From the NCBI GenBank assembly GCA_021413735.1, contig JAIOPV010000016.1:1-64000 (forward strand): a DNA stretch of 64,000 bases, in the 5' to 3' direction. The notes below the pieces were generated by a model. The model made no database searches. It had not been told where the DNA came from and saw only the letters and a program-made list of their open reading frames with translations. The stretch's first letter is position 1. Each line of letters opens with the position of its first letter. The stretch is from Planctomycetota bacterium. GTDB lineage: Bacteria; Planctomycetota; Planctomycetia; Gemmatales; Gemmataceae. Position numbers and translations under genes: made by a program. This document shows, piece after piece, positions 25,388 to 43,361 of the stretch.

Positions 25388-26055
25388 CGCATAACCTCCG
25401 TTAGGAATACTCATGTCAGCACATGGGCGGGCGAGTTATTGCGGGCACTGAACCCAGCACTCTCCGCCATTTCCCCCACACTGATATTATACGATATTTT
25501 GGGGTATGAATCACGCGATCAAATACTGATTGTGATCGCCGTATTTATCAGAGGTGTGTATTTAGAACATATTTGGTGTCGCAGGAATTCCCTGAGCGTG
25601 TGAGCATAGTTATTGCAACGAAATGCTGGAACTGATTGGAGAACGCACCTGGAGGGCGGAGAGTGAGTGGGGAAAGTCACAGCCGTGTGGTGTGAGGTTT
25701 GGCGAACTGATGTGACCTTCGACACGCGAGTGCATGTAGGCCGCTTGCATCGTCGGGCTACAGCACCTCATCTTGCCTCCGCATCCAATCGCGTTCTGCA
25801 CGACAGCGTTTCCGCCCCGCCCAACAGCGGGTAGGACTCGCGCACGGGTGCGGGTTCAGTGTCATCATCGAGAACCTCTCCCATCTCGCCGGTGTCTTCG
25901 CGTGTGACCTCCAGCACAGTCGAGCAACCGGCTGCGTCCTTGCACTCGACGGCGGATCGGTCATGCTGAGAGGACCAAACGGAGGGGAATAGTTGCCGGG
26001 AGTGGTGTCACGATACCGAAGCCTGCGATGGCGAAGTTCCACAAACACCGCATGG
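25388..26055. other. Intergenic region, possible decayed coding
   Basis: No complete gene. On the minus strand at about 25960-25755 a frame without a start codon reads like part of a protein (AAGCSTVLEVTREDTGEMGE), suggesting a decayed gene end. The rest is AT-richer (25480-25620) and featureless. Confidence 0.35.
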
Positions 26056-26673
26056 ATGTGGGCAACGGCGACACCGTTCTCAACTGGCCGCAAAAAGCGC
26101 CTTGCAGTTGTGGCATCATGCCGAGCGATTCGGAGCAACCTGGAAGGTGTGTGTCGCTACTTCTCCGCCTTGGGACCAGACTACGCAATCGAAGTGGATG
26201 AACTATTGTCGCTCGCCGAGTCTCAAGCAGATGAAACTGCCCAAGATGTCAGCCAAGTCGAGGTTCAACGCACGTTGTGGAATGCTCTGGAGTTCTGCGC
26301 TTGTGGTGCGCAAGAGGTCGCGATGTTTCGTGGCTTTCGAGACGCACTGACGTTACTCGATTCCACTACCAACCCTCCGATCTTGTTTGCGACGAGTGTC
26401 ACAAACCGTTTCAAACTATGCGGTCCGTTCCGCGAAGTGTTTGGCAATCCCTTTTGGCCGGTGACATTCGATCCGGCTTGGCTCACGTCAACGGTCGTCT
26501 CGCTCGCCCAAAGCATGTATGAGTCCCGCGACTTTTCAGCGATGCCGATTCTGGCGGACGCACTCCAAGACGCGGGCTGCGACAACGACGACATCCTCGA
26601 CCACTGCCGCGACGAGAAGCAGGTTCACGTTCGCGGATGTTGGGTGGTTGATGCCATTCTCGGCAAGGAATAG
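26056..26673 (+). CDS. ADALQDAG-family protein with divergent N-terminus
   Basis: A 205-residue member of the planctomycete paralogous family. The family C-terminal half is intact: FREVFGNPFWPVTFDPAWLT, then VVSLAQSMYESRDFSAMPIL, then ADALQDAGCDNDDILDHC and VHVRGCWVVDAILGKE. The usual start (MTExEWLxxxDPTPMLEFL) is not present; only TGRKKRLAVVASCRAI matches the following RKLRLFA segment, so the 5' end was replaced or shifted. ATG 26056 is the nearest start in frame; the protein may be non-functional. Confidence 0.5.
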   Translation: MWATATPFSTGRKKRLAVVASCRAIRSNLEGVCRYFSALGPDYAIEVDELLSLAESQADETAQDVSQVEVQRTLWNALEFCACGAQEVAMFRGFRDALTLLDSTTNPPILFATSVTNRFKLCGPFREVFGNPFWPVTFDPAWLTSTVVSLAQSMYESRDFSAMPILADALQDAGCDNDDILDHCRDEKQVHVRGCWVVDAILGKE

Positions 26674-28859: not shown

Positions 28860-29510
28860 ATGACTGAGCGTGAGTGGCTGGCGGCGACCGATCCGACGCC
28901 GATGCTGGAGTTCCTGCGAGGCAAGGCGAGCGACCGGAAGTTGCGACTATTTGGGTGTGCCTGTTGCTTCCGCATCTGGGAATACTTGAAGGACGAATGC
29001 CGTGCGGCGGTGTTGGTTGCCGAGCAGTACGGAGACGGAGCGGCCGACGACACCGAGCGATGGGCTGCCCGTGCTGCGGCTGAAATTGCGACGGACAACT
29101 CCGAATGTGAGGCGACGATCTCTTTGAATAACACGAGCGTGCCATTCGACACGGCTGATTATGTTTCCGTTACAACGGCTGGTCAGGGGTATGTTTTCGG
29201 TCAACCGGGAAGAAATGAGAACGACGAGAAGCAGTTTCTAACCGAACGAATCGTGCATACGGGCTTTCTACGGGACATCTTCGGCAACCCCTTCCACCCC
29301 GTTGCCCTCGACCCCTCCTGGCTCACGCCCACCGTCGTTCGACTTGCCGAACACATCTACCACAAGCGTGCTTTCGACCAGATGCCGATCTTGGCCGATG
29401 CCCTTCAGGATGCCGGGTGCGACAACGCCGACCTGCTGAACCACTGCCGACAACCCGGTGAACACGTTCGGGGATGCTGGGTGGTGGACATGCTGACCGG
29501 ACGCAAGTAA
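28860..29510 (+). CDS. ADALQDAG-family protein, complete
   Basis: A 216-residue complete member. Module 1 (residues 1-45): MTEREWLAATDPTPMLEFLR, GKASDRKLRLFGCACC. Module 2 (about 50-145): variable, rich in Ala/Glu/Asp. Module 3 (about 150-214): LRDIFGNPFHPVALDPSWLT, TVVRLAEHIYHKRAFDQMPI, LADALQDAGCDNADLLNHCR, HVRGCWVVDMLTGRK. The conserved ends and variable middle are the family's hallmark. The sequence gives no enzyme motif; the two CC residues and HCR...GC could bind metal. Function unknown. Confidence 0.72.
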   Translation: MTEREWLAATDPTPMLEFLRGKASDRKLRLFGCACCFRIWEYLKDECRAAVLVAEQYGDGAADDTERWAARAAAEIATDNSECEATISLNNTSVPFDTADYVSVTTAGQGYVFGQPGRNENDEKQFLTERIVHTGFLRDIFGNPFHPVALDPSWLTPTVVRLAEHIYHKRAFDQMPILADALQDAGCDNADLLNHCRQPGEHVRGCWVVDMLTGRK

Positions 29511-29601: not shown

Positions 29602-30276
29602 GTGAACGAACAGGAATGGTTGGCCTGTACCAACCCGTCACCGATGCTGGAGCATCTCCGGGCGAAGGCCAGCGACCGGAAACTGCGGGTATTTGCTGTC
29701 GTTTGCTGTCAGCGTATCCGACACCTGATGAGTGATGACAATAGCGAGCGGTACGAGGTAGCTGAACTCGTTGCGGATGGTACAGGATCGACAAGTGAGT
29801 TGCTGTCCGCTCGGAGCGTAGGCCAACGACTCACGAGCTACACAATCAACAACTTCCCGCTTGCCTGGACCGCTGAAAACTATGCTGATGCTGCTGCTGG
29901 CGATGCGGCTCATACCGACCCGTATTTCGCTGCCTGTTCCGTCTGCGAGTTGGCTCAGCTTGCCCAAAACCCTGTCGAAAACGAATACGGGAACGCGGAC
30001 GTGGGAGAAGAACATCACGCTCAGGCGGCACTCCTCCGTGACATCTTTGGCAACCCGTTTCGCCCTGTGTCCCTTGATCCTTCGTGGCTAACGACCACCG
30101 TCCTTGCCCTTGCTCAGCAGATGTACGAGTCGAGAGACTTCTCAACGATGCCGATTCTTGCCGATGCGTTACAGGACGCCGAATGCGACAACGCCGAGAT
30201 TCTCGATCATTGTCGAAGTGGCGGGTCACACGTTCGTGGTTGCTGGTTGATCGACCTGATGCTCGGGAAGTCGTAG
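29602..30276 (+). CDS. ADALQDAG-family protein, complete
   Basis: A 224-residue member starting at GTG 29602 (VNEQEWLACTNPSPMLEHLR) after GTGGAGTACACC. The conserved first module and the C-terminal LLRDIFGNPFRPVSLDPSWL, LADALQDAECDNAEILDHCR and HVRGCWLIDLMLGKS are all present. The middle region is unlike the other copies (SARSVGQRLTSYTINNF; AHTDPYFAACSVCELAQL). The sequence before it (29561-29580) matches the promoter-like part of the intergenic module described at 38386. Confidence 0.72.
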   Translation: MNEQEWLACTNPSPMLEHLRAKASDRKLRVFAVVCCQRIRHLMSDDNSERYEVAELVADGTGSTSELLSARSVGQRLTSYTINNFPLAWTAENYADAAAGDAAHTDPYFAACSVCELAQLAQNPVENEYGNADVGEEHHAQAALLRDIFGNPFRPVSLDPSWLTTTVLALAQQMYESRDFSTMPILADALQDAECDNAEILDHCRSGGSHVRGCWLIDLMLGKS

Positions 30277-30341
30277 CCTTCAGGCTGCCACGCCCCAGAA
30301 CACGGACAGAAGGTCTGCGTGTGGTATGCCTTTGTACCCAA

Positions 30342-32439: not shown

Positions 32440-32617
32440 TCTTTGCTCGTCGGCTTAAAGGATGTACCAGGACCGTGCTTTCGACTAAATGCCACTCCTT
32501 GCCGACGCCCTCAAAGACGCCGATTGCGACAACGCCGAGGTTCTCGACCACTGTCGAGGGCCAGGGCCGCATGTTCGAGGATGTTTCGTTGTGGACTTGC
32601 TGCTCGGCAAGGAGTGA
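32440..32617 (+). pseudogene. Orphan C-terminal module, ADALQDAG family
   Basis: Only the end of a family gene remains: MYQDRAFD, then a stop (TAA, where relatives have CAA/CAG for Gln), then MPLLADALKDADCDNAEVLD and HVRGCFVVDLLLGKE, stopping at TGA 32617. The next gene starts 4 bases later. The stop falls at a codon that is Gln in most copies. Confidence 0.75.
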
Positions 32618-32621
32618 ACCA

Positions 32622-33302
32622 ATGTCCGAAGCCGAATGGCTTGCGGCGACCGACCCGAAGCCGATGGTCGAATTCCTGGTCGAGACGGCAAGCAACCGGA
32701 AGTTGCTGCTTTTCTGTCTGGCCTGTTGTCGTAGAGTGGAACGACTTATCCTGAACTGGCCGTCTGCCTCATTGGTGGATGTGCTGGAACAACTTGCGGA
32801 CGGCCGGGCAAATCCGGCGTCTGTGCCCGAGCGTGTCCACTCCAAGTGGGAACCCGAACCGTACACGAATCAACTCGGGCCAACCCTTTTCGACTGTGCC
32901 GATGCAGTGTTGGAAGCGGCATTCCGCCCGTGTACAGACCGGTTAGAAGAAACGAGCGACGGGAGCATGCGAAAGGCAGGTGGGCCAACGGCCGTTGTGC
33001 ATTACTTCGAGGTTTTGGGATTCGAGCAATCTGCCACTGTCTCCCCACTGGTTCACGACCTCCACGACATCTTCGGCAACCCGTTCCAACCTATCGTTCT
33101 CGATCCCAACTGGCTCACGTCCACCGTCGTGGCACTCGCCAATGGCATCTATGACGAGAATGCGTTCGACCAAATGCCGATCTTGGCCGACGCCCTTCAG
33201 GATGCCGGGTGCGACAATGAGGATGTTCTTGGTCACTGCCGAAGTGAAGGACCGCACGTCAGGGGCTGTTGGGTGATTGACCAGTTACTTCGGAAGCACT
33301 GA
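32622..33302 (+). CDS. ADALQDAG-family protein, complete
   Basis: A 226-residue member: MSEAEWLAATDPKPMVEFLV, SNRKLLLFCLACCRRVERLI, a unique middle (ADGRANPASVPERVHSKWEP), then LHDIFGNPFQPIVLDPNWLT, VVALANGIYDENAFDQMPIL, ADALQDAGCDNEDVLGHCRS and HVRGCWVIDQLLRKH. Its Shine-Dalgarno (AAGGAG) is formed by the last codons of the preceding orphan module. Role unknown. Confidence 0.72.
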   Translation: MSEAEWLAATDPKPMVEFLVETASNRKLLLFCLACCRRVERLILNWPSASLVDVLEQLADGRANPASVPERVHSKWEPEPYTNQLGPTLFDCADAVLEAAFRPCTDRLEETSDGSMRKAGGPTAVVHYFEVLGFEQSATVSPLVHDLHDIFGNPFQPIVLDPNWLTSTVVALANGIYDENAFDQMPILADALQDAGCDNEDVLGHCRSEGPHVRGCWVIDQLLRKH

Positions 33303-33343: not shown

Positions 33344-34627
33344 ATGGAGTCACCGCAGCAACTCCGTCTCGGGGAAATCGAGCAGCGAGTCTGTGACCTG
33401 GCTGTGGAACACATGGCTATCCCCAGGCGACAAATCTCTCCGTCGAGCCGGTTGATCGAGGACCTTCACTGCGACAGCCTCGACCTCATGGAGTTCGTGA
33501 TGGCCCTGGAACAAGCGTTCGGCGTCACTTTCCCTGACAATTCCTCGTCGGAGCCGATTTGCAAATCCATCTTCACTCGCCAGCCATTCCGCCTCTCCGA
33601 TCTCGCAGAAATCGTTTATGTGCAGCAGGGCACGGGAACTCCACAACGGAACCGCCGGAAGGGCAAAACCCACAAAACCATCATCCCGATGGTGCCGTTC
33701 AGCCAACTTGATGGCCGGTGGCGACCAAGCGGCGAACAACCATTCGAGCCGATGAACGCCAATGGACCGGTTCGGCAATTCCGGCGGCGTTCGGACGGGA
33801 TGAGGTGCGTGTTGATCCCAGAAGCAGCCGTGGAGATTGGCTCCGACGTGCCCGATGGCCTCCCGGATGAACGACCGCCGCACATCGTCGAGGTGGATTC
33901 GTTTGTAATTGACGCCGAGCCGGTATCCACGACGGCGTACTGCCGATTCCTCAACTCCATCGCAACCGTGAGTTCGGAAACACTCTCGGATTGGTTCGCC
34001 CTCGACCCGAAAGATGACCGCAACCAGCATGCGGTCATCACGAAGTCTGGAAATGAGTGGCGACCAACCCTTGGGGCCGAACGGTGGCCGATGGTTCTCG
34101 TCTCGTGGTTCGGGGCAAATGCGTACTCGTTGTGGGCCAACGGGCGAGACTGGAACGACTACCGTGATGAAGCGGGGGTGAACAGTTTCCTGCCAACGGA
34201 GGCTCAGTGGGAATACGCTGCCCGAGGAACTGACCGTCGGCAGTTTCCTTGGGGAAATGATCCACCATCACCAGACCGAATGCGATTCGGCCGTCATGAT
34301 CCAGGCGACACTTACACGGCCAATTCACTTCCGCTGGCTGGAGTCAACGAAGCCCTTGGGTTATCGCCATTCGGGCTTCATCACATGGCCGGGAACGTGT
34401 GGCAATGGTGTCGGGATTGGTATTCTGAGGACTTCTACCAACAGCCCGCTGCTCATCGTCCGAACCCCCTGAACCGTTTGGTGAGTGGCGTTCGGAGCGA
34501 GCGGGGTGGGAGTTGGGTCGGACCAGCCGAGTTGTGTCGCAGTTCGTACCGCCGAGGACGCTCGCCGTGTGCCCGTGGGCGTTGCCTCGGGTTCCGCTGC
34601 GTCAGCCCACCTGAGAATGCTCGCTGA
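33344..34627 (+). CDS. Acyl-carrier-like domain fused to FGE-like domain
   Basis: A 427-residue fusion. Residues ~5-95 form a phosphopantetheine-carrier fold: EIEQRVCDLAVEHMAIPRRQ, SRLIEDLHCDSLDLMEFVMA (the DSLDLME serine is the attachment site), EQAFGVTFPDN. After a linker (RRKGKTHKTIIPMVPFSQLD), residues ~145-425 are an FGE/SUMF1-like domain: MRCVLIPEAAVEIGSD, NSFLPTEAQWEYAARGTDRR, HHMAGNVWQWCRDWYS, RSERGGSWVG, CLGFRCV. Fusing a carrier domain to an FGE-like fold is unusual; covalent substrate presentation is a hypothesis. Confidence 0.8.
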   Translation: MESPQQLRLGEIEQRVCDLAVEHMAIPRRQISPSSRLIEDLHCDSLDLMEFVMALEQAFGVTFPDNSSSEPICKSIFTRQPFRLSDLAEIVYVQQGTGTPQRNRRKGKTHKTIIPMVPFSQLDGRWRPSGEQPFEPMNANGPVRQFRRRSDGMRCVLIPEAAVEIGSDVPDGLPDERPPHIVEVDSFVIDAEPVSTTAYCRFLNSIATVSSETLSDWFALDPKDDRNQHAVITKSGNEWRPTLGAERWPMVLVSWFGANAYSLWANGRDWNDYRDEAGVNSFLPTEAQWEYAARGTDRRQFPWGNDPPSPDRMRFGRHDPGDTYTANSLPLAGVNEALGLSPFGLHHMAGNVWQWCRDWYSEDFYQQPAAHRPNPLNRLVSGVRSERGGSWVGPAELCRSSYRRGRSPCARGRCLGFRCVSPPENAR

Positions 34628-36379: not shown

Positions 36380-36970
36380 ATGACCGAACTGGACTGGCTG
36401 AAAGGTAGGAACCCTGTCCTGTTGTTTCGACACCTCCAGGGCCGCATTACTGAGCGTAAGTTGCGATTATTTGCTGCTGCCGCCTTGAACACGATGAAAG
36501 AGCGAGATCAGGATTCTATCGCCCGCTATGAAGTCGCAGAACGCTTCGCAGACGGGTTGTTGACGGTGAGCGAGCTTCGTAAGGCGTGGCCGGCCATGCG
36601 GACCGACAACCCTGCCACAGCACCCGAACTCGCATACGATTGGGCCGAAGTGGTCGTGATGGCAAAAGACCGAGGGTACTACGGCGGCTCCTTCCCCATC
36701 CTTTCGCAACCACTGGTCAGCCATCTCCTCCGAGAGGTTGTAGGTAACCCCTTTCAACCTGTGACGCTCTTACCGTCATGGCGTACTGACACTGCGTTGG
36801 CTCTGGGCCGTCAGAGGTACGAGTCTCGTGACTTCTCTGCGATGCCGATCCTCGCCGATGCCCTTCAAGATGCCGGCTGCGACAACACCGATATTCTCGA
36901 TCATTGCCGCAGTGATCGACCGCACGTTCGAGGATGCTGGGTAATCGATTTACTCCTCGGGAAGGAGTAA
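36380..36970 (+). CDS. ADALQDAG-family protein
   Basis: A 196-residue member after CAGAGGCGGAC: MTELDWLKGRNPVLLFRHLQ, TERKLRLFAAAALNTMKERD, a variable middle (WPAMRTDNPATAPELAYDWA), then LREVVGNPFQPVTLLPSWRT, LGRQRYESRDFSAMPILADA, LQDAGCDNTDILDHCRSD and HVRGCWVIDLLLGKE. Three units (36380, 36974, 37633) follow head-to-tail with gaps of 2-3 bases, an operon-like trio. A promoter-like GGCGTGGTAAACTGACC lies at 36343. Confidence 0.72.
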   Translation: MTELDWLKGRNPVLLFRHLQGRITERKLRLFAAAALNTMKERDQDSIARYEVAERFADGLLTVSELRKAWPAMRTDNPATAPELAYDWAEVVVMAKDRGYYGGSFPILSQPLVSHLLREVVGNPFQPVTLLPSWRTDTALALGRQRYESRDFSAMPILADALQDAGCDNTDILDHCRSDRPHVRGCWVIDLLLGKE

Positions 36971-36973
36971 GCC

Positions 36974-37630
36974 GTGACCGAACAAGAGTGGCTTACGGCG
37001 ACCGACCCGACGCCGATGCTTCGTTTCATAAAAGGGAAGACAAGCAACCGGAAATTGCGGTTATTTGCAGTGGCTTGCTGCCGCCGGATCGAGCGGTTCA
37101 TCTACCCGCCCTGGCATGGGGTGTTGGAAGCCGCCGAGCAAGTCGCCGATGGGGTAATCCGACACGATGAACTCCTGGCCATTCGTGTCGGTGCAGACCC
37201 GGTTCATGATGGGACGATGGCAGTCGAGGCCGCCGCCATGACCGACCATTTCCCGATTAACAATGCTGATGATGCGGCGGGGTACGCTGCCCAAGCTGTT
37301 GCCAGAGAGGTAGTGCCGGGATATCCAGAGAACCTCGCTGCCTGGCAGGCGGCACGAGGATGTGAGGAAGGGGCTCAGTCCACTGTACTCCGTGACATCC
37401 TCGGCAACCCGTTCCACCCCGTCATCGTCGTTCCCATGTGGCTTACCTCAACCGTCGTGGTGCTTGCCCGCCAGATGTACGAATCTCGTGACTTCTCTGC
37501 GATGCCGATTCTCGCTGACGCACTTCAGGACGCCGGTTGCGACAACGACGACGTACTGAACCACTGTCGAAATCCGGGATCGCATGTTCGGGGATGTTGG
37601 GTAATCGATTTACTCCTCGGGAAGGAATAG
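36974..37630 (+). CDS. ADALQDAG-family protein, second of tandem trio
   Basis: A 218-residue member starting at GTG 36974 (VTEQEWLTATDPTPMLRFIK), four bases after the upstream stop begins. The AAGGAG that serves as ribosome site is part of the upstream GKE* codons. It has NRKLRLFAVACCRRIERFIY, a variable middle (EAAAMTDHFPINNADDAAGY), VLRDILGNPFHPVIVVPMWL and ADALQDAGCDNDDVLNHCRN, HVRGCWVIDLLLGKE. Confidence 0.72.
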   Translation: MTEQEWLTATDPTPMLRFIKGKTSNRKLRLFAVACCRRIERFIYPPWHGVLEAAEQVADGVIRHDELLAIRVGADPVHDGTMAVEAAAMTDHFPINNADDAAGYAAQAVAREVVPGYPENLAAWQAARGCEEGAQSTVLRDILGNPFHPVIVVPMWLTSTVVVLARQMYESRDFSAMPILADALQDAGCDNDDVLNHCRNPGSHVRGCWVIDLLLGKE

Positions 37631-37632
37631 CC

Positions 37633-38376
37633 ATGACTGAACCAGAATGGCTTGCAGCGATCAACCCGACGCCGATGCTTGAGTTTCTGAAGGGGACAAC
37701 AAGCGAGAGGAAGTTGCGTCTCTTTGCCTGTGCGTGCTGCCGCCGCATTTGGTCTGCACTGAAGAGAGGTGGTAGTCGAAAGGCGGTTGAGGTCTGTGAG
37801 GTGTACGCTGACAACCTGACCACAAGCGAGAAGTTGCAATCGGCTCACGAAAATGCCCATGATGCGTTTGCCCGTGTTCAGTGGGCGGCAGAGAGCGATG
37901 AGGAAACAACTCCGGCGAGAGCAGCTATCTACTTGGGCGAAGGAGCAGAGTTTCATCCTGGACTAGTTGCGGACGAAGCTGCGGCGACATTCGGAGTGAA
38001 GGCCAGAGAACGGGATTTCAAACGTCGCAAAAGGGCTGCCGACGCTAAGGGGCAGGAAGCACCGATCTGGGACCAGTACGACGCTATCTATCGTGCGGCA
38101 CAGGCAGAAGAAGCACGAGTACAATCTAACCTGTTACGCTGCGTCATCGGCAATCCGTTTCGCCCCATCCTCGTTAATCCTTCGTGGCTCACGTCCACCG
38201 TTGTCTCACTCGCCCGTGGCATCTACGACGAGAAGGCCTTCGACCGGATGCCCATACTAGCCGACGCCCTCCAGGACGCCGGTTGCGACAACACCGCCAT
38301 CCTCGATCACTGTCGGGCACCGGGACCGCATGTCCGGGGTTGTTGCGTCCTCGACCTGATCCTCGGCAATTCGTAA
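37633..38376 (+). CDS. ADALQDAG-family protein, third of tandem trio
   Basis: A 247-residue, longer member: MTEPEWLAAINPTPMLEFLK, SERKLRLFACACCRRIWSAL, an inserted middle of ~95 residues with basic helix (ATFGVKARERDFKRRKRAAD, EAPIWDQYDAIYRAAQAEEA), then LLRCVIGNPFRPILVNPSWL, RGIYDEKAFDRMPILADALQ, DAGCDNTAILDHCRAPGPHV, RGCCVLDLILGNS. The final GNS differs from the usual GKE, so no downstream copy is immediately coupled. Confidence 0.72.
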   Translation: MTEPEWLAAINPTPMLEFLKGTTSERKLRLFACACCRRIWSALKRGGSRKAVEVCEVYADNLTTSEKLQSAHENAHDAFARVQWAAESDEETTPARAAIYLGEGAEFHPGLVADEAAATFGVKARERDFKRRKRAADAKGQEAPIWDQYDAIYRAAQAEEARVQSNLLRCVIGNPFRPILVNPSWLTSTVVSLARGIYDEKAFDRMPILADALQDAGCDNTAILDHCRAPGPHVRGCCVLDLILGNS

Positions 38377-39284: not shown

Positions 39285-39976
39285 GTGACCGAACAAGAGT
39301 GGTTGATGTGTACCGACCCAACCCTGATGCTGGAGTTTCTTCGAGGTCGTCTAGGTGACCGTCAGAGTCGGCTCCTGATGTTCCAATTCGCCCACGAACT
39401 ACTGGCCTGGCATCACGATGCCCCCACTCGGGAGGTCGTCACGATTCTGGATCGTTATGCCGAGGGGGGCTTTGCGGGTGGGGAATTACACGACGCACTC
39501 CGGCCGTTTGCAGCATCGTGTCAGGTGCTGGCCGACGAAGGGTACCCCTGGCCCGTTCAGGATGCTCATCCTCTTCATGCCCACGTCGAGTCTGCCGCCC
39601 TGTGGCTCATCCGGCGGTTCCTCCCGCCCGAGATGACCGTCTCCAGCCTCTCCGACCTGAGTGGGCTGCGGCTGTCCCCAAAAGACGCTGACACGCTCGA
39701 CTACTTCCGGTGGCTTGTCTGCACAAGACCCTTCGGGACGTAGTGGGGATCGCCACGTTCCGCCACGTCCCCTTCGAGGCAGCGTGGCGAACGTCCACGG
39801 TCGCCGCCACTGCCGAAGGCATCTACGCTGACCGTGCCTTTGACCGGCTGCCGATCATGGCAGACGCCCTTCAGGATGCGGGATGCGACAACGCCGACAT
39901 CCTGAACCACAGTCGGAGCGGGGGGCTGCACGTCCGTGGCTGCTGGGTGATCGACCTGATCCTCGGGAAGTCTTAA
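39285..39976 (+). pseudogene. ADALQDAG-family gene with a frameshift
   Basis: The 5' part (39285-39743) encodes MTEQEWLMCTDPTLMLEFLR and an atypical middle (LHDALRPFAASCQVLADEGY). The 3' part (39710-39976) encodes LHKTLRDVVGIATFRHVPFE, AWRTSTVAATAEGIYADRAF, DRLPIMADALQDAGCDNADI and HVRGCWVIDLILGKS. The two parts need a change of frame within 39710-39743, so either it is a broken gene or two overlapping proteins; the former is more likely. Confidence 0.7.
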
Positions 39977-41136: not shown

Positions 41137-41343
41137 CCACCTGCTCCCAACCGCTCTCGTGTCCTGCCGGTTTCGCTTGCACGGCACATGTACGAGTCAC
41201 GGGACTTCTCCACGATGCCGATTCTCGCAGATGCCTTTCAGGACGCCGGGTGTGATGAACCGGCTGTCCTCGAGCACTGTCGTTGTGGAGGACCGCATGT
41301 GCGGGGCTGTTTCGTTGTCGATCTGCTGTTGGGGAAGGAATGA
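41137..41343 (+). pseudogene. Orphan C-terminal module, ADALQDAG family
   Basis: The open frame ends PVSLARHMYESRDFSTMPIL, then ADAFQDAGCDEPAVLEHCRC and HVRGCFVVDLLLGKE, stopping at TGA 41343. No start or N-terminal module; the preceding sequence (41034-41136) is unrelated. Like the orphan at 32440 it sits immediately before a new family start (41347). Confidence 0.75.
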
Positions 41344-41346
41344 GCC

Positions 41347-41562
41347 ATGACAAAGGAGGAATGGCTTGCTGAGACTTTTCCTAATTCTCTGCTCGCCATG
41401 CTCCCGCTCTCTGCAAGTGACCGCAAGTGCAGATTGTTGGCATGTGCGTGTATACGGAAAGAATGCCCGGTACCCAGAGAGTTGGGCTGCGAATTGGCAG
41501 TGAATTCTGGAGAAAAGATGGCTGACGGGCAACTAGCCCTTAAACAAGCGAATCGTCTCTGA
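41347..41562 (+). pseudogene. ADALQDAG-family gene, N-terminal part only
   Basis: MTKEEWLAETFPNSLLAMLP, LSASDRKCRLLACACIRKEC, then a stop at 41562. The C-terminal module is missing. It follows the orphan C-terminal module by 3 bases and lies ~150 bases before the IS1380 element; the break is not at the IS end, so the truncation may be separate. A minus-strand open frame (41540-41659) with a strong AGGAGGTGAGC site overlaps the end. Confidence 0.6.
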
Positions 41563-41712: not shown

Positions 41713-43361
41713 CAGATCCCGACTTCAGTTTCGCGATTCTCACTGACGCAGCAGCGACACCAGACGAAAGAACGTCATCAGGTACGGGTTCCAGCCCAGC
41801 ACACGCAACACCAGTCGGCGACCACTCTGAATCACCTCGCACGGGATTGTCACAAACTCACTCACAAATGCCTTGAACTCCAGTCGCAACACACGACGTT
41901 TCTCCTCGCGATGTTGTTCCTGCCAGCGGCCCGGCGACACCGGCAGCATCAACGCCCACCACGCCTTCAGATTCCACGCCAACGCCGTCATCACCATCCA
42001 CGCCCCGTTGCTCTCCAAGGTGTTCACCGGAGCTTGCAACGCCCCAACACCAGCATGCAACTGGGCCAACAAGTTCTCCTGGTTGCAACGATCGTTCGCC
42101 TCAAACACGATCTCCTCGGCCGTCCGGTTCCGATCATTGGTGATGTAGAAGAAGAAGCGTTCCTTGGGGAACAACACCTGCTCGCCCTTCTCCTTTGAGA
42201 TGTTCTTGCGGATCACCACCATGCGATACGTCTTCGCACACGCGGTTGGCCGGTAGTCGAACTCGGCCACTTCCTCCGACTTCAACCGCAGCACGTCGAA
42301 CTTTCGCTCGCGAACGATCCGGTCCTTCACCTTCTCTGGCCGCTCGCGAGGTTGCGTCTTCACTTCGTATCGGGCCGGGCGTTGCAATGGCTTCCAGGCA
42401 GTTGCTGGCAAGGCTTCCGCCACTTCGGTGAGGTTCGATCTGGCGTCGTAGCCGAAGATGAACTGCACGCCCGGCAAGCCATCCCAGAGGTCGAGGTGCT
42501 GCGTCTGGGAGAAGTCGGTGTCGCCCCGCAGAACGATGCTGCGAAACCCCGCTTGCAGGCACAGCCAGATCGCCTGATTGACCTGTCCAGAGGCTCCTTC
42601 GTGTGAAGGGCGATTGCCCGGTCGATTCAGCAGACGCAACACTTCGCCGGTCTCGGCCAGACTGACGATCAGAGGATGGTAGCCCCAGGTGCCGTCGTAA
42701 GCGATGTCCATGCCCGCCTTGCACTCGCCGTTGGTTGCGACGAGTGTGCCGTCCATGTCGATGGTAGCCCGGTTGAAAAACGAGCGAGGTTGCTTGGCCC
42801 AGACTTTGCGTCGTGTCTCGTCAATGGCGTCCTGGAGAGAGTCGATGTGCGTTTGGCTGAATCGTCGGCAGAAATCACCAGCAGTGGTGGGATCGGGGAT
42901 GCGGCGTGCCCCGAGAGCATCGAGGAAGGCTTCATCGTTGCGACGCAGTTCGATGTCTTGAAGGCAGGTGCCGTGGCAAAGTGCGTTGTAAGCGATGTTG
43001 AGAACGTGGTCGGACTCGTGATAAGGCAAATGGATCTTGAGGAGGTGAAGTCGCTGGTCGATGGCCTGTGGCAACCCGAGTTGATGTGCGAGCATGTGGA
43101 TGACCCCGATGCCGCCGTGAGCGATGGCTCGGTGCCGGTGCGAGACATCGTAGTCAATGGGTCGACCGGAGAGGACGGGTCGAAACGTGGCCGTGTCGTG
43201 TGTGTTGTCGAGTCGTCGCTGGATTCGGGACTTGCGTGTGCGGAACCAGGAGCGGAAAATCGTTTTCACTCGAAATCCTTGGTTGGGTCTGGTGGTGTGG
43301 GATGCGTCTACATCCACAAACCCCAGAAACCGCTGAGGATTTCGAGCTTTTTTGGGATCGC
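41713..43361 (-). mobile_element. IS1380-family insertion sequence
   Basis: About 1.65 kb, the normal length of this family. Imperfect ends were noted: ATCCCGACTTCAGTTTCG at 41716 and TTTTTTGGGATCG near 43359, read in from both sides as GATCCC...TCG...ATTCTCA. Target-site duplication was not resolved. It carries one complete transposase on the minus strand. Confidence 0.75.
41740..43269 (-). CDS. IS1380-family DDE transposase
   Basis: A 509-residue transposase, GTG start at 43269 after CAAGGATTTCGA. Diagnostic parts: TIDMDGTLVATNGECKAGMD (first catalytic Asp), GTWGYHPLIVSLAETGEVL, RLLNRPGNRPSHEGASGQ, SIVLRGDTDFSQTQHLDLW (second Asp) and ERFFFYITNDRNRTAEEI, EANDRCNQENLLAQLHAG (third acidic Glu). 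Complete and probably active, since no frameshift is seen. Confidence 0.9.
   Translation of the reverse strand: MKTIFRSWFRTRKSRIQRRLDNTHDTATFRPVLSGRPIDYDVSHRHRAIAHGGIGVIHMLAHQLGLPQAIDQRLHLLKIHLPYHESDHVLNIAYNALCHGTCLQDIELRRNDEAFLDALGARRIPDPTTAGDFCRRFSQTHIDSLQDAIDETRRKVWAKQPRSFFNRATIDMDGTLVATNGECKAGMDIAYDGTWGYHPLIVSLAETGEVLRLLNRPGNRPSHEGASGQVNQAIWLCLQAGFRSIVLRGDTDFSQTQHLDLWDGLPGVQFIFGYDARSNLTEVAEALPATAWKPLQRPARYEVKTQPRERPEKVKDRIVRERKFDVLRLKSEEVAEFDYRPTACAKTYRMVVIRKNISKEKGEQVLFPKERFFFYITNDRNRTAEEIVFEANDRCNQENLLAQLHAGVGALQAPVNTLESNGAWMVMTALAWNLKAWWALMLPVSPGRWQEQHREEKRRVLRLEFKAFVSEFVTIPCEVIQSGRRLVLRVLGWNPYLMTFFRLVSLLRQ

Follow-up and report, generated by a model that had tools for sequence, protein, structure and literature searches.

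The window analysed here, a 64,000-nt stretch of DNA from a Gemmataceae draft genome, carries copies of one paralogous gene family, some of which are separated by only 2 to 4 nt. How is the second copy of such a pair translated, and does its joining to the first say anything about how the array arose? The first-pass annotation proposed that the last codons of one copy, encoding GKE, form with the stop codon the Shine-Dalgarno (SD) sequence of the next copy. On direct reading, the four junctions that it described (GKE plus stop, AAGGAG or AAGGAA, and a start codon 2 to 4 bases on) are all present exactly as claimed. At junction 1, AAGGAG (32609-32614) is followed by TGA (32615-32617), ACCA and an ATG at 32622, giving a gap of 4 nt. 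At junction 2, AAGGAG (36962-36967), TAA (36968-36970) and GCC lead to a GTG at 36974 (gap 3 nt). Junction 3 reads AAGGAA (37622-37627), TAG (37628-37630), CC and ATG at 37633 (gap 2 nt), and junction 4 reads AAGGAA (41335-41340), TGA (41341-41343), GCC and ATG at 41347 (gap 3 nt). The upstream partner at junctions 1 and 4 is a C-terminal fragment only (42 and 76 residues stop to stop), without the N-terminal domain, and the downstream partner at junction 4 is an N-terminal fragment of 71 residues. A fifth GKE copy, ending at 26673, has its next family copy about 2.2 kb away. The family copies and candidate sites are as follows.

26026-26673, plus strand: family copy, GKE-TAG end; counter-example, about 2.2 kb without a downstream copy
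28860-29510, plus strand: family copy, GRK-TAA end; 91 nt to the start of the next copy
29602-30276, plus strand: family copy, GKS-TAG end; no nearby downstream copy
32489-32617, plus strand: C-terminal fragment of a copy, 42 residues stop to stop, GKE-TGA end
32609-32614, plus strand: AAGGAG, the last two codons; putative SD for the copy starting at 32622
32622-33302, plus strand: full family copy, RKH-TGA end
36380-36970, plus strand: full family copy, GKE-TAA end
36962-36967, plus strand: AAGGAG; putative SD for the copy starting at 36974
36974-37630, plus strand: full family copy, GTG start, GKE-TAG end
37622-37627, plus strand: AAGGAA; putative SD for the copy starting at 37633
37633-38376, plus strand: full family copy, GNS-TAA end; no nearby downstream copy
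39285-39976, plus strand: copy split across two frames, GKS-TAA end
41188-41343, plus strand: C-terminal fragment of a copy, 51 residues from ATG, GKE-TGA end
41335-41340, plus strand: AAGGAA; putative SD for the start at 41347
41347-41562, plus strand: N-terminal fragment of a copy, 71 residues, with a DDE transposase gene behind it on the opposite strand

The family protein has about 215 residues. A variable middle separates its N-terminal part (MTExEWL...RKLRLFA.ACCRR) from a C-terminal part with strong conservation (GNPF.P...W.TSTV..LA...Y...F..MPILADALQDAGCDN.DIL.HCR..G.HVRGCWVVDL.LGKx). The search of the window's own 9.8 Mb draft genome, in which 150 of 217 first-look candidates were scored and the listed places fetched, gives 151 matches. 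The family was also found in 18 of 18 genomes of the same genus and in 2 of 6 other genomes of the same bacterial family, and is absent from the 7 same-order and 9 same-class genomes searched; named carriers include Gemmata sp. IIL30, Gemmataceae CJuql4, Zavarzinella formosa and Limnoglobus roseus. Nine window frames all score below the Pfam and NCBIfam cut-offs, an NCBIfam scan of 73 members returns a single weak match (E = 0.003), PADLOC gives no match for the two members tried, and no listing from literature searches on the gene family in Gemmata names it. The structure predicted from an alignment of 67 of 176 available locus proteins and six window proteins is all-helical and confident (mean pLDDT 93), and a comparison of this fold with the PDB retrieves nothing at E ≤ 0.001 (best E = 1.9). 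A family with 151 matches in its own genome, for which no curated name or known fold was found, poses the larger question. Its C-terminal part is a separable module: it is also seen on proteins that lack the N-terminal part, following an AbiEii nucleotidyltransferase domain (L163:3220-4464) or a STAS domain (L181:10640-11257). The AbiEii-type protein bearing this module is itself joined tightly to a family copy.

Family ORF ends were collected from all fetched DNA by a profile search with the C-terminal part of the protein, and the next family start by a profile search with the N-terminal part; because both steps use protein profiles, neither selects for an SD. From relatives, 79 loci were kept out of 410 confirmed. 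The search yielded 289 ORF ends, from which 39 altered tails (37 without a near copy, 2 spaced) and then four duplicates were removed, leaving 246 distinct intact tails from the own genome and its Gemmataceae relatives. The next family start lies within 12 nt of 31 tails, at 13-35 nt from 4, at 36-65 nt from 27 and at 66-200 nt from 13. Another 169 tails have no nearby downstream copy, defined as no same-strand family start within 200 nt where at least 300 nt of sequence could be inspected, and two tails that lie at the ends of sequences were assigned to neither group. The 31 tight junctions comprise 25 at 2-4 nt and 6 at 9-10 nt.

The 3' end of the genome's own 16S rRNA, read in locus L246, is ...GGATCACCTCCTTTCT (also given as the 16S tail CCTCCTTT), so the family tails match the anti-SD of this genome. 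At gaps of up to 4 nt, the last sense codon begins with G (encoding E, A, G or V) in 25 of 25 junctions, versus 87 of the 169 tails without a nearby copy (Fisher p = 3e-7), and an SD core lies within the last 8 nt in 24 of 25 versus 74 of 169. The codon enrichment is retained with one junction per locus (17/17, p = 4e-5), within the own genome (11/11 versus 15/56, p = 6e-6), within other genomes (14/14 versus 72/113, p = 0.005) and when loci fetched by junction patterns are left out (22/22 versus 79/159, p = 1e-6). With both the own genome and JAQGHQ excluded it is not significant (7/7 versus 65/97, p = 0.097), and the high background of G-first tails in other genomes (72/113) weighs against reading the tail as an embedded site. 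A pattern search with the last codon left free, run over 19 same-genus genomes, found 15 matches, of which 12 are true family junctions as judged by the start sequence; 11 of these end in E and one in A.

Predicted pairing with the anti-SD points the same way. Its mean before tight starts is -7.6 kcal/mol (n = 32, one later-removed duplicate included), compared with -7.3 for ordinary family leaders (n = 180), -3.0 for random ATGs (n = 1000) and -5.6 for tails without a nearby copy set at the same position (n = 169). Among KE tails, 14 of 19 tight cases and 27 of 62 others are encoded by AAG GAG, and pairing is stronger in the tight ones (p = 0.002). One junction with a 4-nt gap (GGGAAAGCG) lacks an SD core; this junction, one KV and one further KA junction show weak tail pairing (-4.0 to -4.8 kcal/mol). 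The E, A, G and V endings converge on a single nucleotide core, AAGG, and the combination of AAGG with a G-first last codon is also found in GKA, GKG, GRE and one KV ending. Since several residues yield the same core, nucleotides appear to weigh more than the protein end at tight junctions. Glutamate as the specific residue was considered and set aside: with one junction per locus it is found in 12 of 21 versus 64 of 169 (p = 0.10), and the G-first codon predicts better. On a tree of 205 full-length copies (204 with an assigned class), built without the last four residues, 21 changes account for 23 tight rows, so the tight copies are spread over the tree. Turnover of terminal residues is frequent as well (59 changes for G-first), and a paired test on well-supported branches finds only 2 pairs.

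Where the gap is 2-4 nt, the SD of the downstream member thus very probably lies within the final codons of its upstream neighbour. The proposal that the last two codons supply this site agrees with both the enrichment and the 16S match, and the putative embedded site is well supported by sequence, spacing, 16S complementarity and enrichment over comparable tails. A G-first codon following AAG, AAA or AGG would place an AAGG or AGGAG core a few bases before the start. Neither a terminator nor a promoter can fit into an intergenic gap of 2-4 nt, and with no room for a promoter or leader of its own the downstream gene is most likely co-transcribed with the upstream one. Its translation would then start either by termination-reinitiation or de novo at the embedded site, and would presumably require the upstream copy to be translated as well. 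The usual codons of GKE, the commonest ending of the family, happen to form a suitable site, so that a gene arriving just downstream would be served as it stands.

How such junctions came about is a separate matter. There is close to an even chance that they were filtered rather than built, with deletions bringing copies close together and only those upstream tails that offer AAGG leaving a working downstream gene. This history is compatible with an embedded site, as it concerns the origin and not the mechanism. G-first codons are frequent even among tails without a nearby copy (the 87 of 169 above), so no new mutation is needed, and a deletion route for overlaps of SD and stop is proposed in PMC2784483. 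Filtering alone, however, leaves the stronger codon choice within KE tails unexplained. A more speculative extension, which we regard as doubtful, is that the C-terminal module is a portable ribosome site, such that a gene behind it would be translated wherever the module sits, and that this helped the family to spread into operons. If so, the very last residue would be selected as nucleotides and not as protein.

It is unlikely that the tail is a by-product, in which GKE is simply the family consensus, its usual AAG and GAG codons give AAGGAG by default, and the resemblance to an SD has no role. Glutamate is indeed the commonest ending also among tails without a nearby copy (64 of 169), and most GKE copies have no coupled copy. 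Against a by-product stand the complete exclusion of codons that do not begin with G at gaps of up to 4 nt (0/25 versus 82/169), the non-E residues that bring the same core, and the more SD-like codons of KE tails at junctions. The default nature of GKE does bear on the first-pass expectation that copies ending in GKE are followed by a coupled copy and those ending in GKS or GNS are not. Checked in this genome and its relatives, E- and S-ending tails are followed equally often: a copy lies within 65 nt of 27 of 92 E-ending and 19 of 57 S-ending tails (p = 0.72). The 92 E-ending tails comprise 64 without a nearby copy, 22 tight (17 at gaps of up to 4 nt), 3 at 13-35 nt, 2 at 36-65 nt and 1 at 66-200 nt. 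GKE was accordingly rejected as a marker of a following copy. When a copy does follow within 65 nt, it is joined tightly in 22 of 27 E-ending cases versus 1 of 19 S-ending cases, and the ending therefore appears to go with the manner of joining, not with the presence of a next copy. The expected tie between terminal codon and joining thus survives in part: tight joining tracks a G-first codon, and GKE itself is no marker of a following copy. The apparent marker is the default ending, which guards against over-reading the array. Tails without a nearby family copy may also serve unrelated genes. Among 62 E-ending tails of this kind with more than 500 nt of flank, a frame of at least 100 codons starts at -4 to 12 in 19, at 20 to 36 in 10 and at 60 to 76 in 3; for 33 S-ending counterparts, the same three intervals hold 6, 6 and 7. 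As the reading frames are mechanical, such coupling is suggestive only.

The first-pass annotation had further suggested a modular device, in which every unit brings its own coupling signal, allowing whole units to be gained or lost with translation intact. We consider this very unlikely, even though runs of three tightly joined copies occur in the window, in own contig C292 and in loci L161 and L220, and the module and its tail are also found on the AbiEii-type protein joined tightly to a family copy. Tightly adjacent copies are mostly 34-52% identical (two pairs reach 61-63% over short aligned stretches). In 21 pairs that allowed comparison, the sampled same-genome paralog closest to the upstream copy was the downstream one in 4 cases, each from a genome with 1-8 other copies sampled. 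These values give no support for recent extension or contraction by whole units, or for recent unit duplication. Moreover, most GKE copies lack a following copy, and of 32 own-genome pairs no more than 65 nt apart, 19 use the longer gap of 36-65 nt, 11 are tight and 2 lie at 13-35 nt. The array in the window is at least partly decaying, because two of its four upstream partners are C-terminal fragments only. Both look like decayed copies and may be untranslated; the fragment at 32489-32617 has further stop codons upstream. Such fragments may have been selectively retained for the ribosome site that they offer to the gene behind; C-terminal fragments make up 4 of 11 tight tails versus 8 of 51 tails without a nearby copy in the own genome (p = 0.20), and 0 of 19 versus 4 of 112 in other genomes.

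Longer gaps are organized differently. At the six junctions of 9-10 nt, among which is the sole serine (KS) tail of the tight set, TGAGGG or TGAGGA within stop and gap forms the candidate site. At 36-65 nt, 18 of the 27 upstream copies end in S, and S-ending copies are mostly joined through a leader of about 40 nt. A typical spacer before the ATG, stop included, is TGATCGCGGGTATCATCGTGGGAATCGGTTTCGAGGGCGCGCG (L014), with its own GAGGG site. The start codon is ATG in 27 of 27 of these junctions, and at gaps of up to 4 nt it is GTG in 13 and ATG in 12 of 25. A TANNAT-type, -10-like hexamer is found 31-35 nt upstream of the start at 12 of 27 spaced junctions versus 1 of 31 tight ones and 13 of 180 other starts. 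Judged by these motifs, copies at 36-65 nt would each draw on a distinct leader that includes a ribosome site, and they look like units with their own promoters. In own contigs C239, C217 and C210 (L061, L059 and L063), the copies of the arrays are separated by a conserved leader of about 40 nt, which contains a TATCAT-like hexamer and GAGGG as ribosome site, and the upstream copies mostly end in GKS.

The tight junctions resemble termination-reinitiation coupling as described in PMC6728339 and PMC10666635. The genes are co-directional and very close (4, 3, 2 and 3 nt in the window; 25 junctions at 2-4 nt overall), and an SD complementary to the host 16S tail lies in the last codons of the upstream gene (core in 24 of 25). 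According to PMC10666635, 15 nt at the end of the upstream gene are enough for coupling, and PMC6728339 counts Planctomycetes among the groups with intermediate SD use, in initiation and reinitiation alike. Unlike the systems covered there, the paired genes here are members of a single paralogous family and are separated by a gap of +2 to +4, without overlap; their coupling is predicted from the sequence. PMC2784483 reports that the SD overlaps the upstream coding sequence at spacers below 5 bp, and that spacers of 7-8 bp in E. coli bring TGAGG across the stop. The family likewise has an overlapping SD at short spacers and the TGAGG form at longer ones; in contrast to that description, the pattern is repeated within one gene family and the TGAGG form is found at 9-10 nt. 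The two C-terminal fragments of the window are short upstream frames near a start, as in the leader-peptide reinitiation of PMC4833913, but they look like decayed copies. A literature search combining SD, upstream gene, tandem, paralog and translational coupling returned one synthetic-biology review only. The mechanism appears to be a known one, ordinary intragenic SD coupling, and its repeated use within one paralogous family a new instance. A tail that doubles as a ribosome site is familiar from operons, and is no dedicated means of building arrays. What the family offers is a natural, many-times repeated test of how a downstream start shapes the end of the upstream gene: a single protein family supplies hundreds of tails, some closely followed by another gene and some not.

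Several further features of the family and its surroundings were observed. In genome G016 (C1), 12 family matches of identical score and length (251.5 bits) are dispersed over the chromosome, as if a single copy were carried by a mobile element. At the starts of own contigs C178, C112 and C137, the sequence breaks off about 134-136 nt behind a family copy; C28 and C225 carry this match at an identical position close to their starts. These contig ends are assembly breaks at repeated sequence near family copies. Two family copies are fused in one open frame of about 465 codons in L063:4283-5680 (own C210) and L091:967-2355 (own C108). Within the window, a DDE transposase gene (41740-43317, minus strand) adjoins the truncated copy at 41347-41562, and a single protein encoded at 33344-34627 combines a phosphopantetheine-binding domain with an FGE-sulfatase domain. 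Finally, a 34-nt repeat (TTCAGGCTGC..ACGCC-like, families D10/D11) is found at 30279, 31420, 38379, 39165 and 39978; three of these sites lie a few bases past the stop codons of family copies (ends 30276, 38376 and 39976), and two lie elsewhere.
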